This document shows, one piece after another, positions 1-5,453 of a stretch of 5,453 bases of DNA. The position numbers and the translations under genes are program-made. Every line of letters begins with the position of its first letter. Position 1 is the stretch's first letter. The notes below the pieces were generated by a model. The model was not told where the DNA came from and did no database searches. It saw only the letters and a list, made by a program, of their open reading frames with translations. The stretch lies in assembly GCA_022361135.1 (NCBI GenBank), contig JAKSBM010000618.1:1-5453 (forward strand), written 5' to 3'. Source of the stretch: Desulfobacterales bacterium. Its GTDB lineage: Bacteria > Desulfobacterota > Desulfobacteria > Desulfobacterales > Desulfobacteraceae.

Positions 1-17
1 ACTTCATTTTCATTCAT
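1..17 (-). CDS. possible start of the next gene after dnaN (partial)
   Basis: On the minus strand the dnaN stop TGA (16-14) overlaps an ATG at 17-15 in an ATGA arrangement, typical of translationally coupled genes. This frame reads M-N-E-N-E before the window ends. A second ATG lies at 13-11 in another frame. No clear Shine-Dalgarno sequence is visible upstream of either. Many bacteria have recF or gyrB after dnaN, so one of these is the obvious guess, but five residues cannot identify a product. The call rests only on the overlap and on gene-order convention. Confidence 0.3.
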
Positions 18-1138
18 GATATATGCATAGCCATTATTACACAGACAAGTTTATCATCTTCAAGACCTTTAATAATACAAGGGCTCTTACTATCCTTTAT
101 ATTGAGAACCACGGTGGATTCACCAAAGAGGTTCAAGGCATCCTGGAAGTATTTGGGATTGAATGCGCTTTTGATTTCTTCCCCGGAAAAACCGATCATC
201 AGCCGTTCCTTGGATTCGCCGATTTCCGGATTGGTGATGGTGACCACCAATTCATTGTCCAGGAAGTTTAAAACCACACTCTTGTAATCCTCGGAGGTGA
301 GGATGGAAACCCGTCGCATGAGGGTGGAAAAGATGCCCCGATCCATTTCAACGGGGATCATGGCATCGGTGTTGATAACGGGTTTATAATCGGGATAATC
401 CCCATCCAGCAGCTTGATCATGATGGATTCGTTGGCCCGCTGGAAGATGAAATGATTATCCTTGACCCCCACCCTGATTTTATCATCCCCACTGTCGATG
501 AACTTATTCAATTCGGACAATCCCTTTTTGGGGATGATTACCTTTTCATCGGGAAGGTTCAGGGTACCGGTGAAATCGGCATCATAGCAATGGAGGCGTC
601 TGGAATCGGTGGAAACGATGCGGAGCTTTTCTGATCCGTCGTCCTGGACAATCTTTTCAATGAGGGATCCCAGTACATAAATCCGTTTTTCGTCCCCTGA
701 AAAATTAACCACGGCGGAAACATCCACCATTTTTTTCAGGTCCTTGGCATCGACTTCAATGAAATCCACATTTTCAATCACAGGGGTTTCAGGAAAATTT
801 TCATAATCCGAGGAGACAATGTGAAAAATACTGTCGCCCTGACCGATTTCTACCCAGCGATTTTCAACTTCATTGATCAGAACTTCCGTATCTGGATACT
901 CCCTGATGATCTCAAAAAACTTCCTGGAATTAATGGATAGGATACCCTCGGTTTCCACCTGGGCATCGTAACTTCCCGTAAAAACGGTTTCCAGGTCATT
1001 GGCCGTGATGGAGATTTGATCCCCCATGGCCTTGATCAATATGTCCGATGTGATGGATAGGTTTGTTTTCCTCCCTGTTATCCCCTGAACTTTTGACAGT
1101 ATTTCCAGGATATCTTTTTTGTTAAATGCAAATTTCAT
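14..1138 (-). CDS. dnaN: DNA polymerase III beta subunit (sliding clamp)
   Basis: The 374-residue product fits the beta-clamp family (E. coli 366 aa): a ring-forming protein that encircles duplex DNA and tethers the replicative polymerase and other partners. Visible family features are the start MKFAFNKKDILEIL, the domain-2 motif TDSRRL at residues 177-182 (E. coli TDGHRL), DGDYPDYKPVI around 245-255 (E. coli FPDYRRV), MRRVSIL around 274-280, FNPKYFQDAL around 326-335, and the C-terminal strand ending at 374. The three repeated clamp domains fall at roughly 1-125, 126-255 and 256-374. The start is supported by AAGGA six bases upstream. Oddities are TDSRRL instead of TDGHRL, and a C-terminus MAMHIS where most clamps end in MPMR plus a hydrophobic residue; both motifs line the partner-binding groove. 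It is transcribed leftward from the candidate origin, with no dnaA in view. Identification is firm; the functional effect of the substitutions is inference. Confidence 0.96.
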   Translation of the reverse strand: MKFAFNKKDILEILSKVQGITGRKTNLSITSDILIKAMGDQISITANDLETVFTGSYDAQVETEGILSINSRKFFEIIREYPDTEVLINEVENRWVEIGQGDSIFHIVSSDYENFPETPVIENVDFIEVDAKDLKKMVDVSAVVNFSGDEKRIYVLGSLIEKIVQDDGSEKLRIVSTDSRRLHCYDADFTGTLNLPDEKVIIPKKGLSELNKFIDSGDDKIRVGVKDNHFIFQRANESIMIKLLDGDYPDYKPVINTDAMIPVEMDRGIFSTLMRRVSILTSEDYKSVVLNFLDNELVVTITNPEIGESKERLMIGFSGEEIKSAFNPKYFQDALNLFGESTVVLNIKDSKSPCIIKGLEDDKLVCVIMAMHIS

Positions 1139-1175
1139 TCTGGTTCCTTTTCTAATAATTTGGATGCCAAAAAAC

Positions 1176-1202
1176 TTTATATCATCTGGTATGAATTATC
1201 AA
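1176..1202 (-). promoter_or_regulatory. candidate dnaN promoter
   Basis: On the minus strand TTGATA (1202-1197) is followed after 15 bp by TATAAA (1181-1176), about 37 bases before the dnaN ATG. The hexamers match the sigma-70 consensus well, but the spacer is shorter than the usual 16-18. A perfect TATAAT also occurs further upstream within 1221-1232 but lacks a recognisable -35 and lies in very AT-rich DNA where such matches are expected by chance. Confidence 0.35.
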
Positions 1203-1209
1203 TGATAGG

Positions 1210-1246
1210 TTATTCTATTAATTATATATTTATTAAAAGATAATAA
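1210..1246. other. AT-rich stretch, candidate DNA unwinding element
   Basis: Thirty-five of these 37 bases are A or T, the exceptions being C at 1215 and G at 1239. It directly follows the trio-like triplets and leads towards dnaN, which is where an unwinding element is expected in a trio-type origin. AT-richness alone would also fit ordinary promoter DNA. Confidence 0.5.
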
Positions 1247-1259
1247 TCGTAATAGGGGG
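1241..1259 (-). other. GC cluster plus DnaA-trio-like triplets
   Basis: On the minus strand, CCCC (1259-1256) immediately follows the nonamer TTTTGAACA (1268-1260) and precedes CTA TTA CGA TTA TTA (1255-1241). The opposite strand therefore reads 3'-GAT AAT GCT AAT AAT-5', and four of five triplets fit the 3'-(G/A)AT-5' pattern of the DnaA-trio, the element to which DnaA binds as single-stranded DNA. Order and spacing match the B. subtilis arrangement. Confidence 0.5.
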
Positions 1260-1407
1260 TGTTCAAAATGTTAATAACTTTGCAACTCCCTGTATTAGAG
1301 GCGAATTTTTTCGCAACCTGTGTACAAAAGCCGGTTGAGTTTATGAACAAAAGAAGTCGGTTCTTGTTCATAAAAATCGGCTGTTGAAAACTGCGAAGTT
1401 TTGAACA
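1260..1407. repeat. cluster of seven DnaA-box-like nonamers
   Basis: Six nonamers fit TTWTNAACA: TTTTGAACA at 1260-1268 (minus), TTATTAACA at 1269-1277 (minus), TTATGAACA at 1341-1349 (plus) and 1365-1373 (minus), TTTTCAACA at 1382-1390 (minus) and TTTTGAACA at 1399-1407 (plus). A seventh, TTGTACACA at 1319-1327 (minus), differs from the DnaA consensus TTATNCACA only at position 3. The first two are directly adjacent in tandem; the next pairs are inverted. Relative to the classical box the shared change is C to A at position 6. I noticed only one further TTWTNAACA elsewhere, at 370-378 inside dnaN. A different DNA-binding protein could also use these sites. Confidence 0.5.
1341..1373. repeat. 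inverted repeat built from two TTATGAACA nonamers
   Basis: TTATGAACAA (1341-1350) and TTGTTCATAA (1364-1373) are perfect 10-bp inverted arms. Inside them GAA (1353-1355) and TTC (1361-1363) add three pairs with a two-base bulge, around the loop GTCGG. The stem is AT-rich and is not followed by a T run on either strand, so it is a poor terminator. It is better read as paired protein sites or a cruciform-capable element. Confidence 0.6.
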
Positions 1408-1413
1408 TTTTTT
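1382..1413. terminator. hairpin after the rdgC pair, possible weak terminator
   Basis: Plus-strand TGTT-G-AAAACT, loop GCGA, AGTTTT-G-AACA form a 10-bp stem with one G-G mismatch, followed on the plus strand by six Ts (1408-1413). On the minus strand the same stem lies 17 bases past the stop at 1424 and is followed by GCCGATTTTT, so it could end rdgC transcripts, though the T run is offset and the stem is AT-rich. The arms are also two of the DnaA-box-like nonamers, so a replication role is equally possible. Confidence 0.3.
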
Positions 1414-1423
1414 CTTCCCATTT

Positions 1424-1960
1424 TTAATACCGATAAACCCACTCGCGCATCTGCTGTAACCCCTTGTTTTTCCATTCTTCCTGGGTGCAGGCATCCACAA
1501 ACTTGAAAAAGAGGGTGTCAATAATCCCGGAAACCTTGAAAATGAAGTAGGCTTTTTCCAGAACCATGCCTTCTATTTCGTCTTCGGAATCCGCCTTTCC
1601 CATGGATGGGGTTTTTAAACCGGTGATGTTGAAGCTCTCTCCCTTGAGGGTGAATTTATACTCTTCTTCCTCCCCCAGTTTCATGATCAGATTCAGTTCC
1701 GTCACCTTGGCGCCCTTTTTAAGTGCCGTGGCGCCTTCTTCGAGACCGGCCTGGTCTCCTTTTATGGTGATGCGTTCCTTGGACTTGTCCCCCAGGCTGT
1801 TTTCCAGGACCAGGGAATTACCGATTTCCAGGCGGACGGGCAGGCCGGCCGAAGGGATTTCCGGAAGGGGTTGGTCGGTTTCGATCATGAACCAGATCCA
1901 GGTGAGGAAGTCGTTGCCCAGGTATTGATATTTATTATATGCGGTTGCAATGTCCAGCAT
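1424..1960 (-). CDS. RdgC-like protein, C-terminal half
   Basis: The 178-residue product resembles the second half of RdgC, the ring-shaped DNA-binding protein that restrains RecA in Proteobacteria. The segment NDFLTWIW (16-23) matches the stretch around TLTEWV in E. coli RdgC. Residues 79-155, with the order AL-KKGAKVTELNL, YKFTLKG, ITGLK, an acidic stretch (124-130) and FKVSGIIDTLFFKFVD, follow the E. coli C-terminal order EAGKVVTKLAL, IQFVM, LKRLKF, acidic stretch, TGELAALIQNLIEGL. The start is set by GAGG six bases upstream of ATG, overlapping the stop of the preceding gene. That gene is in the same frame, ending TAA followed by one ACC codon and then this ATG. The protein is soluble, acidic-looking, with no signal or membrane segment. 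It probably works with the N-terminal half as a two-part RdgC; homology is by eye, and partnership is inferred from position. Confidence 0.65.
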   Translation of the reverse strand: MLDIATAYNKYQYLGNDFLTWIWFMIETDQPLPEIPSAGLPVRLEIGNSLVLENSLGDKSKERITIKGDQAGLEEGATALKKGAKVTELNLIMKLGEEEEYKFTLKGESFNITGLKTPSMGKADSEDEIEGMVLEKAYFIFKVSGIIDTLFFKFVDACTQEEWKNKGLQQMREWVYRY

Positions 1961-1963
1961 GGT

Positions 1964-1970
1964 TTACCTC
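1964..1970 (-). promoter_or_regulatory. ribosome binding site and stop overlap between the RdgC halves
   Basis: The minus strand reads GAGGTAA ACC ATG. GAGG (1970-1967) is the Shine-Dalgarno of the downstream gene, and TAA (1966-1964) is the stop of the upstream gene. Ribosomes ending the N-terminal half would stop right on the next initiation site, which predicts translational coupling and near-equal amounts of the two proteins. Confidence 0.7.
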
Positions 1971-2578
1971 GCTAATTTAAGGGGGGAGAGGGTGTAAATC
2001 TGATCTTTCTGTGATTCGGTGAAATCACTTTCCTTTTCCACCAATGTATAGGGAAAAAGGCGGATGGCTTTCAGGCCGAACGATTTGAGAAACTGGGTTT
2101 CGAAAAACTCGTTTGCCGCCTTTTGTGTAGTAAAAAGATACAGGCTTTTTTCCTCGTAATTCCATAGCACGTCATAGATGTTCGGAACGGCCGGCATTTT
2201 GCTCATCAGGATATCCATGACGAATTCCTTAATTTCACTCTTTTCATTTTTAGAGACAAAATCGCGGCCTGTACTTTCCTTGCGCTTTTCAATTTCCAGG
2301 GCCATTTGCTTTTGGATCAATTTGGCTGGAATGGATTTCTTATCCACGCGGAGGGAAAAGAGGAAATAGGTGCCGTATATGCAGGAAAATTTTTCAAAAT
2401 CCGGATCATAGGGACTTTCAAAGGGGGTCCAGCCCACGGAAATTTCTTCGTATTCGCTTTCGAGTTTTGGGATGGCATTCTGGATCAGGCCGTTTCGTAC
2501 TTCTTCCATGGTGGAACCGTCAAATTCGCCTTCGATGTGATAACGACTCATGGAATGGGTGTTGGATAAAAATCCCAT
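1964..2578 (-). CDS. rdgC: RdgC-like protein, N-terminal half
   Basis: The 204-residue product looks like the first half of RdgC. SRYHIEGEF (11-19) fits the opening strand, SVGWTPF (47-53) corresponds to KMGWVPP in E. coli RdgC, and SLRVDKKSIPAKLIQKQMAL (75-94) to the stretch containing RKEEKILPSPVIKQAL. A charged helix of Lys and Glu (95-120) and a strand LYLFTTQKAANEFFETQFLKSFGL (about 136-159) match E. coli [23 protein letters not shown]. E. coli RdgC is 303 residues in one chain; here the chain stops after about the first two thirds of that order and the rest is in the next gene. The start at 2578 is chosen because AAGGAG sits five bases upstream; an extension to 2710 would add 44 residues without a ribosome binding site and unlike the family. 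Predicted role: binding DNA and limiting RecA access. The family call is fairly secure by eye; the split-protein role is inference. Confidence 0.72.
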   Translation of the reverse strand: MGFLSNTHSMSRYHIEGEFDGSTMEEVRNGLIQNAIPKLESEYEEISVGWTPFESPYDPDFEKFSCIYGTYFLFSLRVDKKSIPAKLIQKQMALEIEKRKESTGRDFVSKNEKSEIKEFVMDILMSKMPAVPNIYDVLWNYEEKSLYLFTTQKAANEFFETQFLKSFGLKAIRLFPYTLVEKESDFTESQKDQIYTLSPLKLAR

Positions 2579-2583
2579 ATATT

Positions 2584-2910: not shown

Positions 2911-5453
<2,543 letters not shown>

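Follow-up and report, generated by a model that had tools for sequence, protein, structure and literature searches.

The interval directly upstream of dnaN (1139-1423) in a 5,453-bp stretch of a Desulfobacterales genome, here called the window, is very probably a chromosomal replication origin, oriC. The nonamer TTWTNAACA that recurs in it would be the ordinary DnaA box of this lineage, bound by a DnaA with a re-specified domain IV. We place the probability of this reading at about 0.87. A first-pass annotation had named a candidate oriC beside dnaN, and that proposal gains support from conservation of the boxes and of their layout, from the GC skew of two related genomes and from a change in DnaA itself.

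The proposed origin fills exactly the gap between dnaN and a 178-aa ORF (Table 1). It had been described as the dnaN-rdgC interval. The dnaN flank was named correctly, but the other flank is the 178-aa ORF, and that name needs correcting because this ORF sits between the interval and the RdgC-like gene. The RdgC-like ORF covers only positions 9-157 of the 298-position RdgC model, with the conserved 178-aa ORF directly adjoining it, and the two may represent a split RdgC.

Table 1. Genes and proposed origin elements in the window
Feature	Position	Strand	Remarks
dnaN (sliding clamp)	14-1138	-	three Pfam DNA_pol3_beta domains
Proposed oriC	1139-1423		69% A+T; proposed from box cluster, conserved layout and A+T content
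A+T-rich stretch, candidate unwinding element	1190-1255		85% A+T
DnaA-trio-like tract	1239-1255	+	3'-GAT AAT GCT AAT AAT-5'; one unit without the middle A; tract conserved in relatives
GGGGG (CCCCC on dnaN strand)	1255-1259		spacer between boxes and trio-like tract; C-rich in relatives
DnaA-box-like TTTTGAACA	1260-1268	-	second of tandem pair, next to spacer
DnaA-box-like TTATTAACA	1269-1277	-	first of tandem pair; 104 bp from inverted pair
TTGTACACA, canonical-like site	1319-1327	-	
DnaA-box-like TTATGAACA	1341-1349	+	arm of second inverted pair
DnaA-box-like TTATGAACA	1365-1373	-	partner arm of second inverted pair
DnaA-box-like TTTTCAACA	1382-1390	-	inner arm of conserved inverted pair
DnaA-box-like TTTTGAACA	1399-1407	+	outer arm of conserved inverted pair
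178-aa ORF	1424-1960	-	no Pfam match; kept beside box module in relatives
RdgC-like gene	1964-2581	-	PF04381, E 1.4e-8
Pyruvate:ferredoxin oxidoreductase (PFOR) gene, start only		+	

Six copies of TTWTNAACA and one TTGTACACA lie within 148 bp (1260-1407), as the first-pass annotation had counted. It had found only one other copy, inside dnaN, but there are two, at 370 in dnaN and at 4981 in the PFOR gene, both in coding sequence. Its estimate of well under one copy per 285 bp by chance holds, as shuffled versions of the interval average 0.149 copies. Dinucleotide shuffles of the whole window give a mean of 0.67 copies and at most 4 (n=200). The window does lack a canonical box, with TTATCCACA and TTATNCACA matched only by sites with one mismatch, and TTWTNCACA does not occur in the part of the window that was scanned. 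We considered TTGTACACA as a conserved remnant of a canonical box and rejected this, as of 36 other loci only two contain TTRTNCACA, the outgroup L039 among them.

Conservation of the nonamer in relatives is strong. A scan of genome contigs yielded 39 dnaN loci. In 38 of them (Desulfobacula, Desulfotignum, Desulfobacter, and other MAGs and isolates), identity over the best segment is 68-83%; in the outgroup, from Oligoflexia, it is 29%. Set A consists of 32 dnaN-upstream regions of at most 320 bp, 31 from these loci plus the window. It omits five Desulfobacter-type loci with no TTWTNAACA upstream of dnaN (L022, L023, L026, L027, L028), two loci without upstream sequence (L032, L037) and the outgroup. 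Set A holds 108 copies of TTWTNAACA against 7.7 expected, present in 31 of the 32 regions, and 1 copy of canonical TTWTNCACA against 2.2 expected. All expected counts derive from first-order composition and treat related sequences as independent, so the ratios are a guide and not a probability.

The same word recurs beyond the family, in order and class sets that are the groups as drawn by the search tool. In 27 dnaN-upstream regions from other genomes of the order (30 searched), TTWTNAACA occurs 30 times against 3.4 expected, in 15 regions, and TTWTNCACA twice against 1.3. Regions upstream of dnaA were usable for 45 of 48 family loci, 22 of 23 order loci and 29 of 30 loci in set E, the phylum members with a standard DnaA. 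The order regions contain 16 copies of TTWTNAACA (2.6 expected, in 13 of 22) and no TTWTNCACA (1.2 expected); the 45 family regions show no enrichment, with 12 copies of TTWTNAACA against 8.5 expected. Among the 16 TTWTNxyCA variants, AACA ranks first by excess in set A, upstream of dnaN in the order and upstream of dnaA in the order. In the 29 regions with a standard DnaA, CACA ranks first (33 against 1.1 expected, in 20 regions), followed by TCCA (13 against 1.7) and AACA (12 against 1.9).

The AACA sites of the standard-DnaA members are mostly TTATCAACA, and position 5 of the family AACA sites is G or A in 80%. Upstream of dnaN, the order also has an excess of TTWTNGACA (11 against 1.2 expected), so position 6 may be any purine there. 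Sites of the form TTATTGACA or TTATCGACA were seen upstream of dnaN at L295, L300, L304 and L306, in other genomes of the order. Dense arrays are found in another branch of the family, with 8-12 boxes within 300 bp at L116-L119 and 5 at L115, mostly TTATGAACA; a TTATTATTATTA-like tract comes next in these arrays. In the order, at L263-L284, TTWTNAACA recurs slightly upstream of a TTGACA-like element before dnaA, a pattern that looks like autoregulation.

The DnaA proteins of these relatives are altered at base-contact positions of domain IV when compared with E. coli. The canonical motif GG[KR]DH[STA]T is replaced by [KN][RK]YH[AT]T, and E. coli GGRDHTTVLH (430-439) aligns with [KN][RK]YHATAIY, one residue shorter before R432. 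The derived form, with a short turn and no D433, was found in 55/55 family loci, in 71 of 73 further order and class loci, and in none of 25 parsed canonical loci of the phylum. It was also present in 120/120 homologues of one family DnaA among the matches listed (of 3327). The 73 order and class loci, in which some genomes appear twice, divide into YH (68), QH (2), IH (1) and a longer turn (2), and D433 is absent in 72 of them. One longer-turn locus, L317 (GNKHHSS), belongs to a genome that also has the derived L279; the genome of the other, L342 (GGRDHTT), has another DnaA match. Two DnaA genes each were seen in G005 and G006 (L040, L041, L060, L061), and three DnaA-domain matches lie in a row in G336:C2:4080516-4085609.

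Base contacts have been placed at positions 399, 423, 433, 434, 435 and 439 in one account (PMC7561715) and at 399, 423, 432-435 and 438-439 in another (PMC5043019). In the 55 family loci, from 48 genomes, position 433 is always Y, 434 H and 436 T, and R399 is always kept. Position 435 is A in 54 and T in 1, position 423 is K in 53 and Q in 2, and position 439 is Y in 49 and H in 6. R399 and H434 are thus retained while P423 and D433 are lost in all 55, leaving none with the canonical set of reading residues. The canonical comparison used set E, the 30 best domain matches in the phylum rather than a random sample, of which 25 were parsed. All 25 have the longer turn and D433, with A435 in 5, Y439 in 5 and P423 in 19. 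Since the canonical loci vary at 423, 435 and 439, these positions are less specific, and what separates derived from canonical loci cleanly is the short turn and the absence of D433. Domain IV is mostly below pLDDT 50 in the predicted DnaA structure, and no claim is drawn from that model.

The change in the box, from C to A at position 6 and away from a predominance of C at position 5, would go with the one-residue-shorter turn and the replacement of D433 by tyrosine. The retained residues would read the retained ends of the box, and the changed residues its changed middle. The match between DnaA type and box type is best counted as one correlation. The switch was probably a single event with many descendants, so the DnaA and box counts are not independent.

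The first-pass annotation had offered two readings of the nonamer, a DnaA that accepts A at position 6 or an origin with low-affinity boxes only. Under the second, the interval is oriC, DnaA has ordinary specificity and a strong TTATCCACA is simply absent. Weak boxes do belong to known origins (PMC8287927), and members with a canonical DnaA also carry TTWTNAACA above expectation, as given above. This reading is nonetheless improbable. Canonical sites number 1 against 2.2 expected, 2 against 1.3, 1 against 3.5 and 0 against 1.2 in the four in-class sets, the aspartate at 433 is gone throughout the family and from nearly every order and class locus, and the arrays of 5-12 near-identical TTATGAACA at L115-L119 look like preferred sites. 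We prefer the first option, a DnaA that accepts A at position 6, since nonamer and DnaA change alike are found again and again across the family and its order. An ordinary DnaA box, and not a weak site, is the likeliest identity of the nonamer, given that the derived DnaA goes with AACA and that loci with a canonical DnaA favour canonical boxes.

On balance we also favour a broader claim, with less assurance, that the whole class including Desulfobacteraceae has rewritten its DnaA-box code. The short turn, Y433, K or Q at 423 and usually A435 would have moved the box from TTWTNCACA to TTWTNAACA, and origins would be poorly cross-read between this class and canonical bacteria. We found no report of an altered box and DnaA in this lineage in the open-licence PubMed Central literature.

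The boxes are part of a conserved layout. The order toward dnaN is an inverted pair, 96-106 bp of DNA, a tandem pair, a C-rich spacer, a TTATTATTATTATTAT-like tract and T-rich DNA. In 24 of 32 regions the arms of the inverted pair are separated by 8 or 9 bp (8 bp in the window). Its distance from the tandem pair was measured in 22 regions and is exactly 104 bp, as in the window, in 13. The tandem pair has at most 2 mismatches to the 17-mer TTWTNAACATWTNAACA in 29 of 32 regions; in the window a single additional base separates the two boxes. This 17-mer gave 19 matches in 20 genomes, compared with 3 for the reversed pattern, and has a match in 51 of 86 family genomes.

On the other strand, in the 3'->5' direction, the common tract consists of successive AAT units and resembles DnaA-trios. 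Searches for the basal unwinding system (BUS) have required at least three xAx units together with a box and a spacer of no more than 16 nt (PMC8287927). Runs of at least five xAx units occur in 84% of set A, the window included, and in 9% of simulated sequences. For strict [GA]A[TA] runs of at least four, the shares are 19% and 1.6%, respectively. For other genomes of the order, the mean does not exceed that of simulations. We use "BUS-like" as a description and not as membership, since the tract in the window is interrupted, strict trios are uncommon and sister genomes are near background.

If the interval is an origin, GC skew should change sign near it, and this was read in sampled genomes of relatives. 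A switch at the site appears in two of them and is blurred or weak in three others. The closest complete relative sampled, G333 (4,958,664 bp), has a DnaN 80% identical to that of the window and only two exact boxes before dnaN. Its skew is negative before dnaN and positive after, changing sign at about 567 kb (2-kb bins), with dnaN starting at 567,090 and the opposite change at 3.16-3.42 Mb. The contig of G361 (5,589,073 bp) has dnaN at base 1; beyond the contig start skew is mostly positive, and before it mostly negative. G359 (5,197,905 bp) also has dnaN at base 1. Its skew stays positive over the first 2.2 Mb or so, is mostly negative between about 2.5 and 4.4 Mb and fluctuates around zero from 4.4 to 5.2 Mb; this broad, flat minimum of about 0.8 Mb does not single out dnaN. 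In G341, thin and noisy sampling shows skew moving from about -0.06 to about zero near the 178-aa ORF (4.05-4.08 Mb) and not near dnaN (4.26 Mb). Skew is weak in G327. In 12 genomes, including G333, G359 and G361, dnaA and dnaN share a contig but are separated by a linear distance of at least about 1 Mb; the dnaA of G359, at 2.66 Mb of 5.2 Mb, is nearly opposite dnaN.

Eight Desulfobacter-type genomes have dnaN on the same contig as the 178-aa ORF but 94-301 kb away from it. Among ten such genomes, five have two boxes within 150 bp of the end of the 178-aa ORF and one has a single box there; another has three boxes within 760 bp of the ORF, and the remaining three lack boxes there. Most simply read, the constant element is the module and not dnaN. 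Three modules are present in G359: the 178-aa ORF has one (L160:12433), and two precede dnaN (19163 and 19789). The latter two look like a recent duplication, with a dnaN-like start between them. No box was found within 1494 bp downstream of the 178-aa ORF of G327. That genome has intergenic clusters of 8 and 7 TTWTNAACA, each within 320 bp, at L391:12529 and L394:12654. These clusters are 60 kb apart and flank the module-less 178-aa ORF, and may be a moved origin or a regulatory cluster.

A regulatory role must be weighed for the window as well. The boxes could be an operator for dnaN or for the 178-aa ORF and rdgC, bound by another regulator or by DnaA acting as a transcription factor, with the origin elsewhere. 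The cluster does lie directly before dnaN, DnaA also regulates genes, and in the order a single box recurs before dnaA in the 22 regions described above. Against this, skew switches at the site in G333, the modules of several Desulfobacter-type genomes stay at the 178-aa ORF when dnaN is far away, and a trio-like tract next to tandem boxes is more in keeping with unwinding than with repression. We regard an operator in place of an origin as very unlikely. A chance cluster in AT-rich intergenic DNA (69% A+T in the interval against 53% across the window) can be dismissed, since dinucleotide-preserving shuffles of the interval never exceeded 3 copies, none of 20,000 reached six, and both the word and its spacing are conserved in relatives.

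In an origin of this kind, DnaA with its re-specified domain IV would bind the TTWTNAACA boxes. A DnaA filament seeded at the tandem pair would extend over the GGGGG spacer to the trio-like strand and, in the direction of dnaN, melt the AT-rich stretch. Further DnaA could be anchored by the inverted pair, which is 104 bp from the tandem pair, and by the window's extra inverted pair.

The DnaA box is among the most widely shared DNA words of bacteria. If our reading is correct, origin finders seeded with TTATCCACA, the default seed of Ori-Finder 2022 (PMC10225481), may overlook origins in these sulfate reducers or put them in the wrong place. A natural switch of both partners across a class would also be a ready setting for working out the base read by each DnaA residue and how an essential initiator changes along with its many sites.

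The box of this lineage shares with that of Escherichia coli (TTATCCACA) a length of nine bases, a TT start and an ACA end, and its DnaA keeps R399 and H434. In the family the protein differs at P423, D433, T435 and usually H439. The commonest sites, TTTTGAACA and TTTTAAACA, have three differences from TTATCCACA, and TTATGAACA has two. The nine-base DnaA boxes tabled in PMC4285127 all have C at position 6, and the same source calls TCATTCACA of H. pylori the most distant from E. coli.

The layout recalls the BUS-type oriC of Bacillus subtilis, as described in PMC8287927, in its tandem boxes, short C-rich spacer, tract of trinucleotides with a middle A on the right strand and AT-rich DNA. It differs in the box word TTWTNAACA, in the broken unit of the window's tract, in the rarity of the strict trio, and in relatives' dnaA not being beside the origin.

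Thermotoga maritima has a deviant DnaA box, AAACCTACCACC (PMC4285127, PMC10316083). Its helix FNRSHPVV (chain 2z4r) aligns without gaps with the derived FKRYHATA, so this DnaA also lacks the extra turn residue and the aspartate. The boxes of the two are quite different, and the resemblance is likelier to be a parallel change than shared descent.

A survey of Proteobacteria describes the 433-434 dyad of DnaA as highly conservative (PMC5043019). The nearest published joint change at class level is that of the Epsilonproteobacteria (H. pylori, Arcobacter; core TTCAC), in which a lineage-wide box change likewise accompanies changes in the recognition helix (PMC5043019). In that case T occupies position 5, and C6 and the D-H dyad are kept (PMC5043019). 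In the lineage described here, position 6 is A and the aspartate is lost.
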